Assembly: GCF_013266735.1 (NCBI RefSeq)
Contig: NZ_JABSNU010000001.1
Coordinates: 620,001 to 684,000, forward strand
DNA: 64,000 nucleotides
Direction: 5' to 3'
Source: Pedobacter foliorum
GTDB taxonomy: Bacteria; Bacteroidota; Bacteroidia; Sphingobacteriales; Sphingobacteriaceae
Shown in pieces: positions 30,585 to 39,167 of this stretch. The notes beneath the pieces are model-generated. The model had not been told where the DNA came from and did not search any database. It was given only the letters and a program-made list of their open reading frames with translations. The position numbers and the translations under genes are program-made. Every line of letters starts with the position of its first letter. The first letter of the stretch is position 1.

Positions 30585-30943
30585 AATAACTACCTGACGA
30601 ATTTGTTCCTGATGACCACAACAGCACTGCGCAGATCGAAATTGAATTTATGAAAGAGCAAATTTCGGTCTTTATTGTCACAGGTTTTTCTCTGTGCGTG
30701 AACAGAAATTGACGAAATTAGTAATATTAGAAATATTAATTTTTTGAACAGGAACATTTTTTGTTGATTATCAGTGTTTTATTCGGGTTATTCTAATCTC
30801 GTTAATATTATTTATGGTTACTAATTGTAGGGATATTTATTTTAATCCAATCAAAAAGTCAAGCTGATAAATCTGTAGCACCACAAAAGAATATTCTTTT
30901 CTGTTCATTTTTATTTGATATTTCTTTAACAAATTCAAATGTA

Positions 30944-30951
30944 TATCTTTG
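30944..30951 (+). promoter_or_regulatory. -7 box of the short sigma factor gene
   Basis: TATCTTTG fits TAnnTTTG exactly. It excludes the ATG at 30939 as a start and points to the ATG at 30957, which would give an almost leaderless mRNA. A TTTG lies at 30914-30917, further away than usual. Confidence 0.4.
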
Positions 30952-30956
30952 AAATC

Positions 30957-31391
30957 ATGCATCCCTGCACTAGAAAAGAAGAAGACAAAATAGTGGAACT
31001 CATCCGACAAATGGAATTGTCAGGTATAACCTTGCTCTATGATACTTATGGAGCAGCAATTTATGGAATGATTTCGCGTCTGGTTGATTCTGAAATCATT
31101 GCCGAACAGATATTATCAGATACTTTGATTAGGGTCTGTAATCATATCATAGACTTCAGGCCTGAACATTCTACTTTCTTTACCTGGATCATGAACATTG
31201 TCAGATCTCTGGCAAAAGATCATATCTTTGCAACTATTAAAAATCTAGAAGATAAAGAAGATATAAGTGTTTTTGACCTGATGGTAAACAAAGGTTTTTC
31301 TATAGCGGTAGTCTCGGAATTACTTTCCATAGGCAAGTCAGCATGTGCGATGAAGTTAAGGGCTGAATTGATGACCATAAATATTAAGTGA
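30957..31391 (+). CDS. Short, degenerate ECF-type sigma factor
   Basis: 144 residues. Region 2 is recognisable: GITLLYDTYGAAIYGMISRLVDSEIIAEQILSDTLIRVCNHIIDFRPEHSTFFTWIMNIVRSLAKDH. The usual linker of about 50 residues is nearly absent, and a weak region 4 follows (VFDLMVNKGFSIAVVSELLSIGKSACAMKLRAELM), in which the invariant Gly-Thr-Val-Lys turn is replaced. It overlaps the anti-sigma gene by four bases (GTGA). It may be a true sigma with relaxed promoter choice or a modified regulator. Confidence 0.75.
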   Translation: MHPCTRKEEDKIVELIRQMELSGITLLYDTYGAAIYGMISRLVDSEIIAEQILSDTLIRVCNHIIDFRPEHSTFFTWIMNIVRSLAKDHIFATIKNLEDKEDISVFDLMVNKGFSIAVVSELLSIGKSACAMKLRAELMTINIK

Positions 31392-31990
31392 CCGTGAACC
31401 TGCAAACCTATATAGAAAGTGGTATTTTGGAACTTTACATTTTGAACTTACTTGATGAGTCCGAAAGATTAATGGTCCAATCGATGGTACTGAAGAATCC
31501 TCAATTGAAAATGGAAATTCAGGAAATTGAACGCGCTCTTGAAAATTATGCATTTGAGTATGCTGTTGAGCCTTCTGTAGGGTTAAAGGAGAAGATTGAA
31601 CAAAAGTTGGTGACTTTGGCGGCGGATAATGCTATCCAGGATAAGCTCATACTTATTGATGAATATTCAGATCTTCAGTCTTGGCTGGATTCTGTAACCC
31701 GTCGTTTCCCGGAAGCGTTACATGCAGAGAATTTTTGTGAATTGATTGGGCAAGAGAGCGGATTGAAACAGATGCTGGTGGTATCTACTTTTGACATTGA
31801 AGAAGAAAGCCACGAACAGGAATATGAAAGTTTTTTGATTTTGCGTGGGAAATGCAGATGTACTGTTGATGGAAATATTTTTTTTCTGGAAGCAGGCGGT
31901 TTCACGCAAATTCCATTGAAGGTAAATCATAAGGTAGAGGTTATAGATGGTCCGGTAATGGCTGTCGTTCAATACACGGCAGCAGTTTAA
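31388..31990 (+). CDS. Anti-sigma factor with C-terminal cupin domain, ChrR-like
   Basis: 200 residues with a GTG start inside the sigma gene's stop. The N-terminal 60 residues (YIESGILELYILNLLDESERLMVQSMVLKNPQLKMEIQEIERALE) match the zinc-free anti-sigma N-terminal helices. The C-terminus is a cupin (EQEYESFLILRGKCRCTVDGNIFFLEAGGFTQIPLKVNHKVEV). It has no membrane helix, so it is a cytoplasmic sensor. Few metal-ligand histidines remain in the cupin. The stop overlaps the stop of the convergent gene by four bases. Confidence 0.78.
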   Translation: MTVNLQTYIESGILELYILNLLDESERLMVQSMVLKNPQLKMEIQEIERALENYAFEYAVEPSVGLKEKIEQKLVTLAADNAIQDKLILIDEYSDLQSWLDSVTRRFPEALHAENFCELIGQESGLKQMLVVSTFDIEEESHEQEYESFLILRGKCRCTVDGNIFFLEAGGFTQIPLKVNHKVEVIDGPVMAVVQYTAAV

Positions 31991-32262
31991 TTCTGATTCA
32001 GTTGCTGGTCAATTTTCTCTTGTAAAGCGATTTTAAAATCTTCATCCAGTTCAGTCTGACTTTCTGTATCCAATTGTACTCTTTTTTTGATCATACCATT
32101 GATGAGTATACTTTGTCGCTGGAATATTTTGCAAATGCTGCATCCTGCAAGGTGAATTCTAAGTTCCATTTTTTCTTTTGTAGTCAGCTCAGTGAGTTGC
32201 TTCTTCTCGATAAGGAAAGTCGCTTGTCGGCAGTTGTATATGATTTTAATTAATCTGTTCAT
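31987..32262 (-). CDS. Small zinc-finger-type anti-sigma factor
   Basis: 91 residues without a membrane helix. The motif HLAGCSICKIFQRQS gives the His-x3-Cys-x2-Cys of the anti-sigma zinc-binding domain. It begins 10 bases after the sigma gene stop and is very likely its inhibitor. The short soluble form, with a thiol-metal site, would suit sensing of oxidants, consistent with the Msr operon next door. Confidence 0.82.
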   Translation of the reverse strand: MNRLIKIIYNCRQATFLIEKKQLTELTTKEKMELRIHLAGCSICKIFQRQSILINGMIKKRVQLDTESQTELDEDFKIALQEKIDQQLNQN

Positions 32263-32272
32263 GTCAAAAGGT

Positions 32273-32872
32273 TTAAATCCAATATTTCTGCAGACATGCT
32301 CTTAAACTGAGCTTCGCGCGGTGGATAATGACCCAGAAATTGGCTGGCGTTACTTTTAATGTGCTGCAGATGATCTCTGTACTTTCCTCATCTACATGCT
32401 TCATGGAGAATACGGCGTACCAAAGATTCGGTAGTTTATTCATACACCCCTGAAGTACGCGCTCAAATTCTTTGTGTTGTAAAGGGTTTTCAACAGCGGC
32501 TGCGAATTCCTGTGGTCGGTAGGCGTTATTCCAGTGACCGTCCTGCTCATCAAAAAAATCCTGTTGTTCGTGTTCCTCTTCTAAAATTTCGTTTTGGGAA
32601 TACAGACCAGATGATTTTTTTCGGTAAAGGTCTATGATCTTATTTCTTAGTATGGCTGTCAGCCAGGTTTTTTCAGTGCTCTTTCCTTCAAAATGAGACA
32701 AGCTTTCCAGTGCAGCCAGGAAGGTTTCCTGAACCAGGTCACGCGCCTGCTCCTGGTCATTGATTCTGATAATGGCGTAGCAATAGAGGTAATCTGCATA
32801 GTTACAGACCCACTGGCGCGGATTGGTCAGCTCTGGTAAATCGGGCATTTCTGCCTGCTTATTGTTTTGCAT
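32273..32872 (-). CDS. ECF sigma factor controlling the Msr operon
   Basis: 199 residues from the ATG at 32872. The longer frame reaching 32950 is excluded because its start would lie upstream of the promoter. Region 2 is YADYLYCYAIIRINDQEQARDLVQETFLAALESLSHFEGKSTEKTWLTAILRNKIIDLYRKKS, region 4 CMNKLPNLWYAVFSMKHVDEESTEIICSTLKVTPANFWVIIHRAKLSLRACLQ. It is divergent from the YHS-Msr genes, which carry the same promoter words. Confidence 0.9.
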   Translation of the reverse strand: MQNNKQAEMPDLPELTNPRQWVCNYADYLYCYAIIRINDQEQARDLVQETFLAALESLSHFEGKSTEKTWLTAILRNKIIDLYRKKSSGLYSQNEILEEEHEQQDFFDEQDGHWNNAYRPQEFAAAVENPLQHKEFERVLQGCMNKLPNLWYAVFSMKHVDEESTEIICSTLKVTPANFWVIIHRAKLSLRACLQKYWI

Positions 32873-32909
32873 ACATGCTTTAGCTTGCTTAAATATAGGA
32901 TTATATCTG

Positions 32910-32941
32910 CTTAGTCGCTTGCTTGTAGCAAACCTTACAAG
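32910..32941 (-). promoter_or_regulatory. ECF-type promoter of the sigma gene
   Basis: Minus strand: -35 CTTGTAAGGTTT (32941-32930), 11 bases, -10 GCGACTAAG (32918-32910). It matches the plus-strand promoter ahead of the YHS gene word for word apart from one base in the -10. It implies autoregulation. Confidence 0.75.
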
Positions 32942-33029
32942 AAATGTCAAAAATAAAACAACACCTCTATTTCCTTCTTAAATTGGTATTTGGGGTGAAA
33001 TGGAAAGGCTAGAAAATAATTGAAATTTC

Positions 33030-33060
33030 TTGTAAGGTTTAGGTTGTTGTTGCGACAAAG
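33030..33060 (+). promoter_or_regulatory. ECF-type promoter of the YHS-Msr operon
   Basis: -35 TTGTAAGGTTT (33030-33040), 11 bases, -10 GCGACAAAG (33052-33060), with the first ATG 20 bases further on. Together with the divergent promoter the flanks form a perfect 16-base inverted repeat (32930-32945 and 33025-33040). Confidence 0.78.
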
Positions 33061-33080
33061 GGAGAAAAGAACCTGAAATT

Positions 33081-33545
33081 ATGAAACGATTATTAGTTTA
33101 TTTAATGCTTTCCACATTGCTGATCAGCAATGGATTTACACAATCAACGCATTCAAAACAAAAAATTAACCTGGACAAATCTGGACTCGCTATTGAGGGC
33201 TACGATCCTGTAGCCTATTTCAGGTCAGGAAAGGCTATACCAGGGAAGAAGGAATTTGCTATCGCAGCTGATGGGGTTATGTATAGATTCAGCAATGCTG
33301 AGCATAGGGAACTCTTTAAAGCTGATCCTGGTAAATACCAACCGCAGTACGGTGGCTGGTGTGCTTACGCAATGGGTGCCAAAGGCGAGCTGGTGTCGGT
33401 TGATCCGGAAACATTCAAAGTGCTGAATGGAAAACTGTACTTGTTCTACAATAAGTTTTTTAACAACACGCTGAAAGAATGGAATAAAGCAGAGCAAAGT
33501 TTAAAAATGAAAGCTGACCAGAATTGGTCCAAATTCGACAATTAA
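33081..33545 (+). CDS. Exported YHS-domain protein 1
   Basis: 154 residues: signal peptide (about 1-20, ending FTQS) and a YHS domain (LDKSGLAIEGYDPVAYFRSGKAIPGKKEF ... YGGWCAYAMGAKGELVSVDPETFKVLNGKLYLFYN). Such domains may bind metals; the role in the periplasm is not settled. It is the first gene of the operon behind the ECF-type promoter and similar to the next gene. Confidence 0.88.
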   Translation: MKRLLVYLMLSTLLISNGFTQSTHSKQKINLDKSGLAIEGYDPVAYFRSGKAIPGKKEFAIAADGVMYRFSNAEHRELFKADPGKYQPQYGGWCAYAMGAKGELVSVDPETFKVLNGKLYLFYNKFFNNTLKEWNKAEQSLKMKADQNWSKFDN

Positions 33546-33551
33546 AAATAC

Positions 33552-34001
33552 ATGCATATGAAACTTTTATTCAGTGCCTTGATTTTGGTATGGTTTACCA
33601 CAGGCAGCGTTTACGCACAAAAATCAGAAATATTTGCACCAGCGGGGAAGGCCATTAAGGGCTATGATCCAGTGGCATTTTTTAAAATATCAAAGCCTGT
33701 AAAAGGAAATGACAGCCTTTCTTATACCTGGAAAGAAGCCAAATGGCTGTTTGCAAATAAAGAAAATAGGGAGGATTTTATGGCAGACCCTGAACGGTTT
33801 GCACCACAATATGGTGGCTATTGTGCCTATGGAACTGCGAAGGGACATAAGGCACCGACACAGGCGGAAACCTGGACAATTGTAGGGGACAAGCTTTACT
33901 TCAATTATAATAATAAGGTGAAGGGCTTGTGGGCTAAAGACCAGGAAGCCTTCATCAAAAAAGCCGATGAGAACTGGCCCGAAATTAAAGAAAAGCCTTA
34001 A
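33552..34001 (+). CDS. Exported YHS-domain protein 2
   Basis: 149 residues: signal peptide and a YHS domain (AGKAIKGYDPVAFFKISKPVKGNDSLSYTWKEAKWLFANKENREDFMADPERFAPQYGGYCAYGTAKGHK). It starts six bases after the first YHS gene and shares its plan, so a tandem duplication is likely. The closing WAKDQEAFIKKADENWPEIKE is a helix also seen in gene 1. Confidence 0.88.
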   Translation: MHMKLLFSALILVWFTTGSVYAQKSEIFAPAGKAIKGYDPVAFFKISKPVKGNDSLSYTWKEAKWLFANKENREDFMADPERFAPQYGGYCAYGTAKGHKAPTQAETWTIVGDKLYFNYNNKVKGLWAKDQEAFIKKADENWPEIKEKP

Positions 34002-34012
34002 TCCTTGAAATC

Positions 34013-34411
34013 ATGACTAGTCAACAAAAACATATCGGAGGTTGGATACTGCGTTTAATTGCGGCGGTGATCATGCTGCAAACTTTGTTTTTTAAGTTTA
34101 CAGGAGCACCGGAATCTATTTATATTTTTTCCCGTCTTGGCATGGAACCCTGGGGCAGAATCGGCACAGGTGTAATGGAATTCATCGCTTCCATATTGAT
34201 CTTGATACCAAGAACTAAGGGTCTTGGTGCATTACTTGGATTGGGGCTGATGAGCGGGGCATTGTTCTTTCACCTGACCAGTTTAGGAATTGTAGTTCAG
34301 AATGATCACGGGGTACTGTTTGGGATGGCCTTACTGGTGTTCGCCAGCTGTTTGATCCTGGTTGTTGCCAATCGTGTTCAACTCCGCTCTTTAATTAAAA
34401 ATAAATCCTAA
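34013..34411 (+). CDS. DoxX-like membrane protein
   Basis: 132 residues with four membrane helices (GGWILRLIAAVIMLQTLFFKFTGAPES, GTGVMEFIASILILIPR, LGALLGLGLMSGALFFHLTSLG, VLFGMALLVFASCLILVVAN). It resembles DoxX/DoxD-type proteins; the FKFTGAPES loop after helix 1 is typical of that group. It is probably an inner-membrane partner for quinone-linked or oxidant-defence chemistry, but the role is not established. Confidence 0.75.
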   Translation: MTSQQKHIGGWILRLIAAVIMLQTLFFKFTGAPESIYIFSRLGMEPWGRIGTGVMEFIASILILIPRTKGLGALLGLGLMSGALFFHLTSLGIVVQNDHGVLFGMALLVFASCLILVVANRVQLRSLIKNKS

Positions 34412-34415
34412 TGCC

Positions 34416-34916
34416 ATGTATTTAAAAGAACCCATAGCTGGCCTATTTATCCAAATGGAAAGTATGCTGGATTGCCTAAGTGATCAGCAGTATACCCAAA
34501 AGATTGGGATAATGTCTAATTCTTCGATAGGAGCTCATGTAAGGCATGTGATTGAGTTTTACCTGGAGCTGAACCAAGGGTATTCCAACGGAAATGTGAA
34601 CTATGACCTGCGCAAGAGAGATCATACCATTGAATCCAGCAGAGATTTTGCCTTGCTGAAGCTGGAGGAAACCCTAATGGCATTGGACAAGCCAGATCGG
34701 CAATTGCAGCTTTCCGGGAGTTATAGTTTAGCCGATGAGGCTGGATTTAGTGTCCCCAGCAGTTATTACAGAGAATTGATTTATAACCGGGAACATACAG
34801 TACATCATATGGCTTTAATGCGTATTGGGGTGGAGCGCGTGTCTTCTATCCAGCTACCTGCTCATTTTGGTTTGGCTGTTTCCACTTTAAAACATAAGCA
34901 ATCATGTGTACAGTAA
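34416..34916 (+). CDS. DinB-like four-helix protein
   Basis: 166 residues with the metal-binding histidine arrangement of the DinB/YfiT fold: IGAHVRHVIEFYLEL near residue 46 and NREHTVHHMALMRIG near residue 130. Many relatives are thiol-dependent transferases. The stop lies 13 bases inside the next gene, so the two are translationally coupled. Confidence 0.75.
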   Translation: MYLKEPIAGLFIQMESMLDCLSDQQYTQKIGIMSNSSIGAHVRHVIEFYLELNQGYSNGNVNYDLRKRDHTIESSRDFALLKLEETLMALDKPDRQLQLSGSYSLADEAGFSVPSSYYRELIYNREHTVHHMALMRIGVERVSSIQLPAHFGLAVSTLKHKQSCVQ

Positions 34917-36646
34917 CTTTTTTACCGGTTAAAAATGGAGTTTACCTGACCTCGAACAGGGATGAGCAGGTAACACGTGCCCAGGCATTGCCTCCGCAAT
35001 CTTATGTTGTAAATGGGCTTACGTTGACTTTTCCGAAAGACCCGGATAAAGGTGGGAGCTGGATGGCATTGAAAGGTGATGCTGATGTAGCGGTACTGCT
35101 CAATGGGGCATTTGTAAAGCACATCCCTAGATCTTCCTACAGGAAAAGTCGGGGGCTGATTCTGTTGGAGATATTCAGTCAGGAGTTTCCAGTGCTTTAT
35201 TTTGAAACCTATGATCTGCTGGAAGTTGAGCCTTTTACCTTGATCCTGTACCTGAAAGGTAAGCTTTATGAGTGCCGCTGGACCGGAGTGCAGAAATATC
35301 TGCAGGAATTGTCTACGTCAATTGCACACATCTGGTCTTCGGCAACCCTTTATGAGGAAGATATAGTCTTGCAGCGGGCAAGATGGTTTTCCGACTGGCA
35401 GGCACATCAACGGAGATTTGCTGTAAAAGACATTTTGGACTTTCATCGCTTTGGCGGAACCGGAAATCCGGAGCAGGACCTGGTGATAAACCGTCATGGT
35501 AAAATGATGACCAAAAGTATTACCAATATCGCCATAGTTAAGGGAAAAGGCAAAATGACTTACCTGGATTTGCAACAGTTAGGGAAACCAGCAGATGGTA
35601 AATTAATGTTATGGTTTCGCAAAGCTGCGATACGGACATTTAACTGGGAGTACTGGCCACTTCAATTGGTTTATGCTCCCGTGATGTGGTATTGGTTTTG
35701 GTTGAGTCTGAAAGCGCGTTCACTTTTTTTCTTTAGCGCAGCTAATCCCCTGATCCTTAATTCAGGCTTTGCAATGGGAAAAAAGAGCAGTATTTACGAG
35801 CTGATGCCAGGAAAATATTACCCAAAAACCTTGCTTTGCAGATCAGGCGAGAAAATAGAGGATGTAGAAAAAGATTTGGAATTAAAAGGGCTGAGATTCC
35901 CCCTAATGGCTAAGCCTGACATCGGGGAAAGAGGAGTAAAAGTGAAACTGCTACAATCTGAACCCGAACTCCGGAATTACCTCGAAGAGAATCAGGTGGA
36001 CTTTTTGCTTCAGGAGTATATAGATTATGAACTGGAGGTCGGTGTATTCTATTACCGCATCCCCGGGGAACGCAAAGGTCAGCTATCTGGTATTGTGGGA
36101 AAGGAATTTCTTAAAGTAAGGGGAGATGGCAACGCTACTATTGCTATGCTTTTAGGTAAAGAAGATCGTTCATTCTTACAACTGGATGCTTTAAATAAAT
36201 TGTATGGTAATGATTTGAACCGGGTATTGGCTGATGGAGTTTGTGAAGAATTGGTGCCTTATGGCAGTCACAACAGGGGGGCGAAATTTATTGATCTGAG
36301 CTTTCGGATCAATGAGGAGTTGAGCACTGTCATTGACCAGTTTTGTCAGAAAATCCCAGAGTTTTACTATGGAAGACTGGACATTAAGTTTAAAAGCTGG
36401 GAAGAACTTTATGCTGGCGAACATTTTGCGGTAATTGAAGTTAACGGGGCAGCCAGTGAACCTACACACATGTACGATCCGGTACATTCTGTTTTCTTTG
36501 CCTGGAAGGAGATCATTAGGCATTGGCAGTTGCTTTATCAGATCAGCCGATTAAATGCCAGAAGAAAGGGACTGATGCTAATGGGGAATGCCGAAGGCTT
36601 TCGCATGATTAAAGCGCATGTGGCCCACCTAAAAATGATGGCCTGA
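34904..36646 (+). CDS. NRDE domain fused to an ATP-grasp domain
   Basis: 580 residues in one frame. The N-terminal part (1 to about 235) is an NRDE/TANGO2-type domain: MCTVTFLPVKNGVYLTSNRDEQVTRA with the N-terminal Cys and Asn-Arg-Asp-Glu. A hydrophobic stretch (WEYWPLQLVYAPVMWYWFWLSLKARSLFF) follows. The C-terminal part (about 300-560) is ATP-grasp-like: LMAKPDIGERGVKVKLL, FLLQEYIDYELEVGVFYYR, GRLDIKF and AVIEVNGAASEP. It possibly ligates or transfers on an envelope substrate; substrate unknown. Confidence 0.82.
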   Translation: MCTVTFLPVKNGVYLTSNRDEQVTRAQALPPQSYVVNGLTLTFPKDPDKGGSWMALKGDADVAVLLNGAFVKHIPRSSYRKSRGLILLEIFSQEFPVLYFETYDLLEVEPFTLILYLKGKLYECRWTGVQKYLQELSTSIAHIWSSATLYEEDIVLQRARWFSDWQAHQRRFAVKDILDFHRFGGTGNPEQDLVINRHGKMMTKSITNIAIVKGKGKMTYLDLQQLGKPADGKLMLWFRKAAIRTFNWEYWPLQLVYAPVMWYWFWLSLKARSLFFFSAANPLILNSGFAMGKKSSIYELMPGKYYPKTLLCRSGEKIEDVEKDLELKGLRFPLMAKPDIGERGVKVKLLQSEPELRNYLEENQVDFLLQEYIDYELEVGVFYYRIPGERKGQLSGIVGKEFLKVRGDGNATIAMLLGKEDRSFLQLDALNKLYGNDLNRVLADGVCEELVPYGSHNRGAKFIDLSFRINEELSTVIDQFCQKIPEFYYGRLDIKFKSWEELYAGEHFAVIEVNGAASEPTHMYDPVHSVFFAWKEIIRHWQLLYQISRLNARRKGLMLMGNAEGFRMIKAHVAHLKMMA

Positions 36647-36728
36647 TGACCATCTTTAATTTGCAGGAATACGTAACTAAATGTGTATTGAAATTGTTTT
36701 AGAATTAGAGCTTATAAAAATTGAAATT

Positions 36729-37352
36729 ATGAAAACGAATCTGTTGAATTTGAAATACCTGTCCTTGTTGTCCTTTGCCCTATTATTTGGATCAAATGTT
36801 TCCGCACAGAAGAAACAAGCCGATACGGCTACTTTTGCCGCTGGCTGTTTCTGGTGTGTGGAGGCTCAACTTAAAGAGTTACAGGGGGTAATAAAAGTGG
36901 TTTCAGGCTATACTGGCGGAACGGTGGTACGACCAACTTATGAGCAGGTGAGTACCGGAACAACCGGACATGCTGAAGCGGTAAATGTTATTTATGATCC
37001 GTCCAAGATCAGTTATGATGAGCTTTTGGCTGCGTTCTTTACCGCACATGACCCAACCCAGCTGAACAGACAGGGGAATGATCATGGAACGCAATATCGC
37101 TCGGCTATTTTTTATCACAATGCCAACCAGCAAAAACTGGCTAGTTATTATATTGGAAGACTCAACCAGGAGAAGGCATATCCAGGTAAAGTGGTAACCA
37201 CAGTGAGTGCATACACCGTTTTTTATCCTGCAGAAGATTATCATCAGGACTTTTACAACCGGAACAAAGAGCAGCGTTATTGCCAGTATGTGATTGCACC
37301 GGAACTGGTAAATTTCAGAAAAGTATTTAAGAACAAATTGAAAAATCCTTAA
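36729..37352 (+). CDS. msrA: Exported peptide methionine sulfoxide reductase A
   Basis: 207 residues from the ATG at 36729, which begins a signal peptide (MKTNLLNLKYLSLLSFALLF). The catalytic motif is GCFWC, with nucleophile Cys40, followed by GYTGGTVVRPTYEQVSTGTTGHAE and the substrate-pocket region NDHGTQYRS. It reduces the S form of methionine sulfoxide in exported proteins. It is in the Msr operon behind the ECF promoter. Confidence 0.94.
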   Translation: MKTNLLNLKYLSLLSFALLFGSNVSAQKKQADTATFAAGCFWCVEAQLKELQGVIKVVSGYTGGTVVRPTYEQVSTGTTGHAEAVNVIYDPSKISYDELLAAFFTAHDPTQLNRQGNDHGTQYRSAIFYHNANQQKLASYYIGRLNQEKAYPGKVVTTVSAYTVFYPAEDYHQDFYNRNKEQRYCQYVIAPELVNFRKVFKNKLKNP

Positions 37353-37371: not shown

Positions 37372-38121
37372 ATGAAATTAAAGTTGTTTATATTCCTTGT
37401 TACAGGCTTGTTAATGGGAAGTGCAGTTTTAGCTGGCCGGTCAAACAGGACTGAGCCTGTATCTACAGGTTTTGCCGTTGTAGAGCTATTTACTTCACAG
37501 GGATGTTCCAGTTGTCCTGCGGCAGAGGAGGTGTTGTCCAGACTGGTGCTTTCTGGCCAGCCAAATGTGTATGCATTGGCATTTCATGTGGATTATTGGG
37601 ACAACTTAGGTTGGAAGGATCAGTTCAGTTCAGCACACTACACCGCAAGACAACACCTTTATGCAGCTGGCAAGGGTGCAGATGGGGTGTATACGCCGCA
37701 AGCTATTGTGAATGGCGAGGTTCATTTGATAGGATCAGAGGAACAAAAATTACAGAAGGTGATTGATCGTATGGAAAATAAAACAGCTGAAAACCAGATC
37801 GTTTTAAAAGCTGAGATCAATTCTAACCGTAGCGTTGAGTTACAATATGATGTTTCGGGTGAGACAAAGGATGTAGTACTTAATGTTGCACTTGTGCAGC
37901 GCCTGAGTAAGACGGCGGTAAAATCAGGGGAAAATGCCGGACGAAATCTTGGCAGCGTGAATGTAGTCCGTAGTTTCAAAACCATCCCGGCGGGTAAGGG
38001 AGCTGTTGAGCTTGCGTTACCTAAGGGCCTGGAGGCTAAAGATTGTGCAGTTATTTTATATACTCAAAATAAGCATTCCATGCACATTACCGGGGCAAGT
38101 GAATACAAGGTTAATCTATAA
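37372..38121 (+). CDS. Exported DUF1223 thioredoxin-fold protein
   Basis: 249 residues: signal peptide (to about 21), then FAVVELFTSQGCSSCPAAEEVLSRL with a CSSC thioredoxin-type motif, and the family's HVDYWDNLGWKDQFSS and YTPQAIVNG. A beta-rich C-terminus follows. Placed between msrA and msrB, it is a good candidate for passing electrons to the two reductases in the periplasm; that role is inferred from position and motif. Confidence 0.85.
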   Translation: MKLKLFIFLVTGLLMGSAVLAGRSNRTEPVSTGFAVVELFTSQGCSSCPAAEEVLSRLVLSGQPNVYALAFHVDYWDNLGWKDQFSSAHYTARQHLYAAGKGADGVYTPQAIVNGEVHLIGSEEQKLQKVIDRMENKTAENQIVLKAEINSNRSVELQYDVSGETKDVVLNVALVQRLSKTAVKSGENAGRNLGSVNVVRSFKTIPAGKGAVELALPKGLEAKDCAVILYTQNKHSMHITGASEYKVNL

Positions 38122-38132
38122 ATGAGCTATCG

Positions 38133-38639
38133 ATGAAAAATATTTTAAATGTGCTGATCCTGTTACTCGTGGTTTCAGGCAGCTATGGACAAAGTAAACC
38201 GGTCGTTAAAAACCCGTACTATTCCAGAACGGATACTAAAAAACTAAATGTGAGCAACGCAGAATGGAAAAAGATCTTATTTCCTGAACTGTATGCGGTT
38301 GCACGGGAAGGAGCTACCGAAAGGGCTTTCACAGGTAAGTACTGGGATGCTGAGGCTAAAGGAACCTATTATTGTAGGGTATGTGGAAATGCTTTGTTTA
38401 AATCGGACGCAAAGTTTGCCAGCACATGTGGCTGGCCTAGTTTTTTTGAACCAATTCGGAAGAATAGTACCGTTTATCGTGAAGACAATTCTGTCGGGAT
38501 GCAGCGAACCGAGGTGCTTTGTGGTCGCTGTGGGTCGCACCTGGGACATATTTTTGATGATGGCCCCGCGCCAACCCACAAACGTTATTGTATGAATTCC
38601 ATCTCGATGGATTTTGAACCGGATGCTTTAGGTAGGTAG
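38133..38639 (+). CDS. msrB: Exported peptide methionine sulfoxide reductase B
   Basis: 168 residues: signal peptide (about 1-19), zinc cysteines in CRVCGNALF and LCGRCGSHLGH, and the catalytic RYCMNSISMDF near the end. It reduces the R form of methionine sulfoxide, complementing MsrA. It is the last gene of the operon, with a hairpin directly after the stop. Confidence 0.94.
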   Translation: MKNILNVLILLLVVSGSYGQSKPVVKNPYYSRTDTKKLNVSNAEWKKILFPELYAVAREGATERAFTGKYWDAEAKGTYYCRVCGNALFKSDAKFASTCGWPSFFEPIRKNSTVYREDNSVGMQRTEVLCGRCGSHLGHIFDDGPAPTHKRYCMNSISMDFEPDALGR

Positions 38640-39167
38640 GAGAAGAGGGCTTCTCTCGTTTTTTGTTTTGACCAGCCCTGCAATATCCATTACCAATGAA
38701 GCCAGGTTTTCCAACACAGATTTATTCTTTTTGGAGAATTTTCTGGGTTTGAAATCTAGCAGACAAATGGTTCCGATTCTTAATCCTTCAGGAGTGCTTA
38801 AAGGTGCTCCGGCATAAAACTTGAGTCCGAATTCACCGGCTACCCATGGGTTGCTGAGTAGGCATGGGGATAGATTAGTATCTTCAAAAACCGTTACTTC
38901 GTGCTTTAAGATGGTCAACGAGCAAATGCTGGTCTTTCTCGGTTCTTCGGTTACCTTGCCTATACCTTTACCTGAGACCACATAGACTATATCTGTTTCT
39001 ACCAGCGTGATCATTGCAATGGGTACTTCAAACAGCTGAGCGCCGAATCTGATTAAAGTATCAAAGGCTGGTTCATGAGGGCCTTGTAGAATACCATAAG
39101 ATCGGAGTGCTGAAATCCGTTGTTTTTCATTTTTAGGAAGGGTATTGAATACAAAATGATTCTTCAT
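38628..39167 (-). CDS. GAF-domain protein
   Basis: 179 residues from the ATG at 39167 (MKNHFVFNTLPKNEKQRISALRSYGIL), a usual opening of short Bacteroidetes GAF proteins; a longer frame adds 13 residues. The GAF domain covers about 25-165: FDTLIRFGAQLFEVPIAMITLVE and APLSTPEGLRIGTICLLD. There is no output domain, so it is a stand-alone small-molecule or redox sensor. Its end overlaps msrB by 12 bases. Confidence 0.82.
   Translation of the reverse strand: MKNHFVFNTLPKNEKQRISALRSYGILQGPHEPAFDTLIRFGAQLFEVPIAMITLVETDIVYVVSGKGIGKVTEEPRKTSICSLTILKHEVTVFEDTNLSPCLLSNPWVAGEFGLKFYAGAPLSTPEGLRIGTICLLDFKPRKFSKKNKSVLENLASLVMDIAGLVKTKNERSPLLLPT
38640..38664 (+). terminator. Terminator of the Msr operon
   Basis: GAGAAG, loop AGGG, CTTCTC, then TCG and six T. 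It begins at the base after the msrB stop and lies inside the last codons of the convergent GAF gene. Confidence 0.6.

Follow-up and report, generated by a model that had tools for sequence, protein, structure and literature searches.

Genes and paired sites at the locus

The window analysed here is the whole stretch of 64,000 nucleotides at positions 620,001-684,000 of contig NZ_JABSNU010000001.1 of Pedobacter foliorum (GCF_013266735.1). Two divergent operons are located in it. The operon on the minus strand encodes an ECF sigma factor of 199 amino acids (32273..32872; Sigma70_r2 E 9.6e-14, region 4 E 1.9e-4, the latter below cut-off) and a soluble zinc-site (ZAS) anti-sigma factor of 91 amino acids (31987..32262; zf-HC2 E 0.0019). 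The operon on the plus strand consists of eight genes with gaps under 35 bases. It begins with two YHS-domain proteins (33081..33545 and 33552..34001; NF041384, 135.6 and 153.8 bits, cut-off 70), followed by a DoxX-like membrane protein (34013..34411; PF13564, 27.7 bits, cut-off 26.3), a DinB-like protein recognised by eye, with no family match over cut-off (34416..34916), a TANGO2 domain fused to a RimK-like ATP-grasp domain (34904..36646; PF05742 and PF08443 over cut-off), MsrA (methionine-S-sulfoxide reductase, 36681..37352; PF01625 E 1.3e-63, TIGR00401), a DUF1223 protein (37372..38121; PF06764 E 2.8e-58) and MsrB (methionine-R-sulfoxide reductase, 38133..38639; SelR domain PF01641 E 5.3e-49). 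Apparent signal peptides are present in both YHS proteins, MsrA, the DUF1223 protein and MsrB, and the start of MsrA is probably the internal ATG at 36729. The operon ends in a terminator-like hairpin (38639..38656, plus strand), which is a consensus match only. The TANGO2/ATP-grasp fusion is a single frame of 580 amino acids; the two parts are separate genes in the related locus L063 (genome G013) and apparently in L122.

Between the operons the same words are found on both strands. The minus site (32940..32914) reads TTGTAAGGTTTGCTACAAGCAAGCGAC followed by TAAG in the window sequence, and the plus site (33030..33056) reads TTGTAAGGTTTAGGTTGTTGTTGCGAC followed by AAAG. Their layouts are TTGTAAGGTTT-GCTACAAGCAA-GCGAC and TTGTAAGGTTT-AGGTTGTTGTT-GCGAC, respectively, with TTGTAAGGTTT-N11-GCGAC(T/A)AAG common to both, which bears out an earlier note on this DNA that had described the same words exactly 11 bases apart on the two strands. 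By chance, 0.01 matches to the pattern are expected per window, and two matches occurred in 0 of 100 shuffles. The whole-genome search suggested in the same note was run as TTGTAAGG-N10-18-GCGAC, and the pair at the locus proved to be the only two matches in 6,078,697 bases, the reversed control giving 0. Looser searches of this genome with two mismatches yielded no more matches than the reversed control did (61 versus 81 and 44 versus 71); therefore, no additional regulon members are claimed.

The two sites are very probably outward-facing promoters. In the predicted promoter of the sigma/anti-sigma operon (32904..32940, minus strand), the -35 box TTGTAAGGTTT occupies 32940-32930, the -10 box CGACTAA occupies 32917-32911 and the predicted start is the A at 32904. 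In the promoter of the YHS...MsrB operon (33030..33066, plus strand), the corresponding elements are TTGTAAGGTTT at 33030-33040, CGACAAA at 33053-33059 and the A at 33066. The predicted leaders are 32 bases long on the minus strand, where the transcript would lead to the sigma start at 32872, and 15 bases long on the plus strand. It had been claimed that the motif fixes the sigma start at 32872. The motif does narrow the choice, since a TTG-started frame from 32950 would run through the promoter and is ruled out; the start at 32872 is plausible, but the motif does not decide between it and the in-frame ATG at 32848. Residues C143, C169 and C193 of the sigma factor are invariant in 16 aligned sigma proteins, and C143 and C193 are also retained in four proteobacterial relatives.

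The soluble His-Cys-Cys zinc site anticipated for the inhibitor is present in its full signature, with the ligands C11, H37, C41 and C44. These four residues are invariant across 42 aligned sequences, the spacing C-x25-H-x3-C-x2-C is found in 78 of the 79 inhibitors adjoining related sigma factors, and the protein has no evident membrane segment. It is the sole match in the genome to the antisigmaE family (NF052368), scoring 44.7 bits, which is under the curated cut-off of 50 and leaves it outside the family; the sigma factor likewise stays outside TIGR02943 (Sig70_famx1) with 152.6 bits against a curated cut-off of 162.2. The structure model of the anti-sigma factor is a four-helix domain (pLDDT 89). 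In fold searches the solved anti-sigma factors RsiW, MucA and RslA rank at the top but with modest scores (Foldseek E 0.5, Z 5.6-6.8) that are no proof by themselves, and a PDB sequence search with the anti-sigma profile found no relatives. A second sigma/anti-sigma-like pair (30939-31990, plus strand), comprising a 150-residue protein whose only sigma region is Sigma70 region 2 and a 200-residue cupin protein, is convergent with the zinc-site anti-sigma gene, and their 3' ends overlap by four bases (31987-31990).

Conservation of the promoter and variation of its targets

Conservation was followed in two collections. The first comprises 80 named loci from Pedobacter, Mucilaginibacter, Chitinophaga, Dyadobacter and others, with closely related strains included. 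In these loci the spacer between TGTAAGG and CGAC is exactly 15 bases in 185 of 186 instances, and sites lie ahead of the sigma gene in 66 loci, of a divergent gene in 52 and of a gene after the anti-sigma gene in 47. Absence of the motif from orthologous intergenic regions had been named in advance as the observation that would speak against the promoters; the motif is found in most of these regions, with the same spacing. A weight matrix built from the 185 sites, from which the window sites were excluded, gives these two sites scores of 49.5 and 37.3, and no other position in the window scores above 5.3. The logo of the relatives' sites consists of upstream A-tracts, TTGTAAGGWTT, about twelve free bases and CGACTAA, and an A is located ten bases after CGAC in 83% of sites. 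The third promoter copy, directly after the anti-sigma gene in 47 of the 80 relatives (e.g. L082:6851, L061:10290 and L065:8387), often precedes a gene for an AhpC/TSA redoxin, whose leader is then 300-400 bases long; the window is without this copy.

The second collection consists of 81 genomes of the family, in 17 of which the sigma protein was counted as present (E below 1e-30). The extended motif TTGTAAGG-N15-CGACHRA is present in 15 of these 17 genomes versus 2 of the 64 others (Fisher 2e-12, a value uncorrected for kinship). Altogether 34 of 36 motif sites fall in sigma-bearing genomes, the reversed control giving 6 matches over all 81, and many of the sites occur as back-to-back pairs in the interval that separates the sigma gene from a divergent gene. 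The two remaining sites, in G010 and G060, which have no close sigma, precede no recognised target and are probably due to chance. In the other two sigma-bearing genomes altered forms take the place of the strict pattern: G013 has the near variant CTGTAAGG, and the diverged relative G019 has the -10 box CGTCTAT, which occurs at three sites (L072:1596, 5513 and 9051) and suggests that sigma factor and promoter have changed together.

Beyond Sphingobacteriaceae and its neighbours, no strict motif was found upstream of most sigma homologues. A phylum-wide search with CGWCTAA was rejected as promoter evidence, because several matches fall within the 3' portion of sigma genes, where they encode the conserved C-K-E-L-x-I-T-x-S-N-Y-W. 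There the coding sequence of sigma region 4 mimics the motif, with TGTAAGG-N15-CGTCTAA encoding CKEL.IT.SNYW (L175:1665, L176:1621, L183:1633 and others).

The genes behind the promoter are more variable. Pedobacter sp. Hv1 has the same promoter and, apart from MsrA, the same operon, and elsewhere the promoter precedes DUF1223, with cytochrome b561 and an MsrP-like oxidoreductase encoded behind it. In other relatives it precedes AhpC/TSA redoxins, an RclC relative, MsrB, MsrB-MsrA or a spondin-domain protein (L071:6756, L090:10117, L099:7813, L111:4474 and L146:5703), the last sometimes divergent from a redoxin gene. Judged by the predicted products, this is a constant promoter with changing cargo and with one theme, envelope methionine and thiol oxidation, and the target set is fitting for a response to envelope oxidants.

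Relation to Neisseria sigma-E and other known systems

The closest comparison is provided by sigma-E of Neisseria (NMB2144; gonococcal Ecf) and its anti-sigma factor NMB2145. The sigma factors are homologous (33.7% identity over 96% of the length to a gonococcal record from a plasmid collection in tblastn, E 9e-20). The small soluble anti-sigma factor just downstream of the sigma gene, with its Cys-x25-His-x3-Cys-x2-Cys ligands, is matched at the locus at equal spacing. Neisseria sigma-E controls its own operon and msrAB (PMC2893595), and the predicted circuit in Pedobacter is alike in autoregulation, an msr target and a very small regulon; the Neisseria arrangement, in which the promoter stands before both the sigma operon and msr genes, recurs in the window and, with msr or MsrP-like genes, in relatives.

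The similarity extends to the promoter. Hopman and colleagues described the Neisseria sigma-E promoter as -35 GTMAGBWTT and -10 CGTCTAAH with a 12-13 base spacer and an upstream A/T-rich element, and the start of gonococcal msrAB was mapped to an A six bases after the -10 box (PMC2893595). The -35 box, the gap and the A six bases after the -10 box are matched at the locus; counted out, the conserved A ten bases after CGAC is at the same position as the mapped gonococcal start. The Neisseria consensus has only two matches in the gonococcal record, ahead of the DoxX...sigma/anti-sigma cluster and of msrAB, and the msrAB promoter reads GTAAGGTTT-N12-CGTCTAA with the A at the same place. The Neisseria promoter and the Pedobacter sites agree in the -35 box, the 12-base gap and the start A, whereas the -10 box is CGTC in Neisseria and mostly CGAC in the Pedobacter lineage: CGTCTAAH is unmatched at the locus (CGACTAAG and CGACAAAG), although CGTC occurs in some relatives. 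Gene order and content differ as well. Unlike in Neisseria, sigma operon and target are divergent neighbours in Pedobacter, DoxX is found in the target operon and not with the sigma operon, and the YHS, DinB-like, TANGO2/ATP-grasp and DUF1223 targets are absent from the Neisseria set.

The pair RpoE2/HrsE of Haemophilus influenzae shares an ECF sigma factor with a small soluble zinc-motif inhibitor and controls msrAB and a DoxX operon (PMC7907618), but it belongs to a different phylum and has different neighbouring genes. Considering that both Pedobacter proteins score slightly under the curated model cut-offs and that the -10 box differs by one base, the circuit is described as a homologous relative of this known kind (Neisseria sigma-E/NMB2145, Haemophilus RpoE2/HrsE), outside those model families, and this placement is well supported. 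No Bacteroidota study of such a system was found in the open-access literature.

More distant systems agree in single features. Sigma-R of Streptomyces has a different promoter and differs in its large thiol regulon. The zinc-site ligands of its inhibitor RsrA share the residue numbers C11, H37, C41 and C44 (RsrA numbering per PMC2893595). Brucella BcrS/AbcS (ECF16) is an ECF pair for an MsrPQ-type system, is induced by hypochlorite and has TGTAA in its -35 box, but its promoter is TGTAAC-N17-CGAA versus TGTAAGG-N15-CGAC of the Pedobacter type, and the ECF16 consensus (T/C)GTAAC-N17-CGAA is unmatched at the locus, which has GTAAGG and CGAC (PMC8315932). PSPTO_1043 of Pseudomonas syringae was rejected as a counterpart, having another promoter (TGATCC...CGTA) and a ChrR-type inhibitor.

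The proposed circuit and its meaning

We propose that the adjacent ECF sigma factor reads both mirror-image sites. Without stress it would be held by the co-encoded 91-residue zinc-site anti-sigma factor. Oxidation of the zinc-site cysteines, with hypochlorite or another thiol oxidant as the most likely agent, would free the sigma factor, which could then transcribe its own sigma/anti-sigma operon, a positive autoregulation with a built-in shut-off, together with the divergent eight-gene operon, many products of which look exported. MsrA and MsrB would repair oxidised methionine, and the YHS, DoxX and DUF1223 proteins probably handle redox damage in the envelope. On the sequence evidence the circuit as a whole is probable, and its first step, the reading of both promoters by the adjacent sigma factor, is very likely. 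We infer the binding of both sites from what is seen directly in the DNA, i.e. the sites, their rarity, their conservation and their co-occurrence with the sigma gene; the conserved spacing and the family-wide tracking of the sigma gene support the claim of the earlier note that one sigma factor reads both promoters. Inhibition and redox release are suggested by target functions and by homology: inhibition by NMB2145 requires its cysteines (PMC2893595), and HrsE abolishes RpoE2 activity (PMC7907618).

The weakest step is the redox trigger. Metals can act as signals for zinc-site inhibitors, and TANGO2 and YHS proteins have been linked to haem or metals; the same sigma factor could thus act on the same promoters after release by a metal (zinc, copper), by haem stress or by another cue instead of thiol oxidation. 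On the one hand, oxidants left sigma-E expression unaltered in meningococci (PMC2893595), which counts for such a cue and weakens the thiol-oxidation switch as previously proposed. On the other hand, the conserved zinc ligands and the target functions fit that switch, the targets in relatives serve methionine-sulfoxide repair or encode redoxins and an RclC relative, and Haemophilus RpoE2 does respond to hypochlorite (PMC7907618), making a signal other than thiol oxidation unlikely. It is very improbable that the sites are promoters for a different ECF sigma factor. The genome has many such factors (44 matches to an ECF sigma profile), and their promoters can overlap, but the motif is confined to this locus in the genome and follows this sigma factor across the family, and most sigma-lacking genomes hold many sigma candidates yet no motif. 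The perfect 16-base inverted repeat could also be read as the operator of a regulator binding a palindrome between the genes, which is most improbable and is rejected because paired copies are anywhere from 15 to 135 bases apart in relatives, where other genes are preceded by single, unpaired copies, and because two boxes, a fixed 15-base gap and a conserved start A are the layout of an ECF promoter.

The repeat itself (32930..33040) was correctly described as perfect, its 16-base arms (32930-32945 and 33025-33040) corresponding to the two -35 boxes with flanking A/T-rich bases, and a repeat search extends the arms to 21 bases at 95%. It does not, however, form a separate element, as the spacing of the pair is unconserved in relatives; it is two identical -35 boxes placed back to back, a by-product without independent meaning.

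For a soil-type bacterium of the Bacteroidota, the locus offers a sharply defined stress sigma regulon that lends itself to testing. Housekeeping promoters of Bacteroidota differ from those of other bacteria; this ECF promoter is nearly identical between Bacteroidota and Neisseria in both boxes, the spacing and the start base. A possible but still tentative generalisation is that in Bacteroidota the pair is a fixed oxidant sensor with a near-constant promoter, to which lineages attach alternative envelope methionine/thiol-repair kits (MsrAB, the MsrP-like system, redoxins, RclC and YHS-DoxX-TANGO2/ATP-grasp). If this is true, hypochlorite defence would include components not described before, namely the YHS pair and the TANGO2/ATP-grasp protein. 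The motif also serves as a handle for genome searches, making the YHS, DUF1223, spondin-domain and TANGO2/ATP-grasp genes behind it candidates for envelope oxidant defence.
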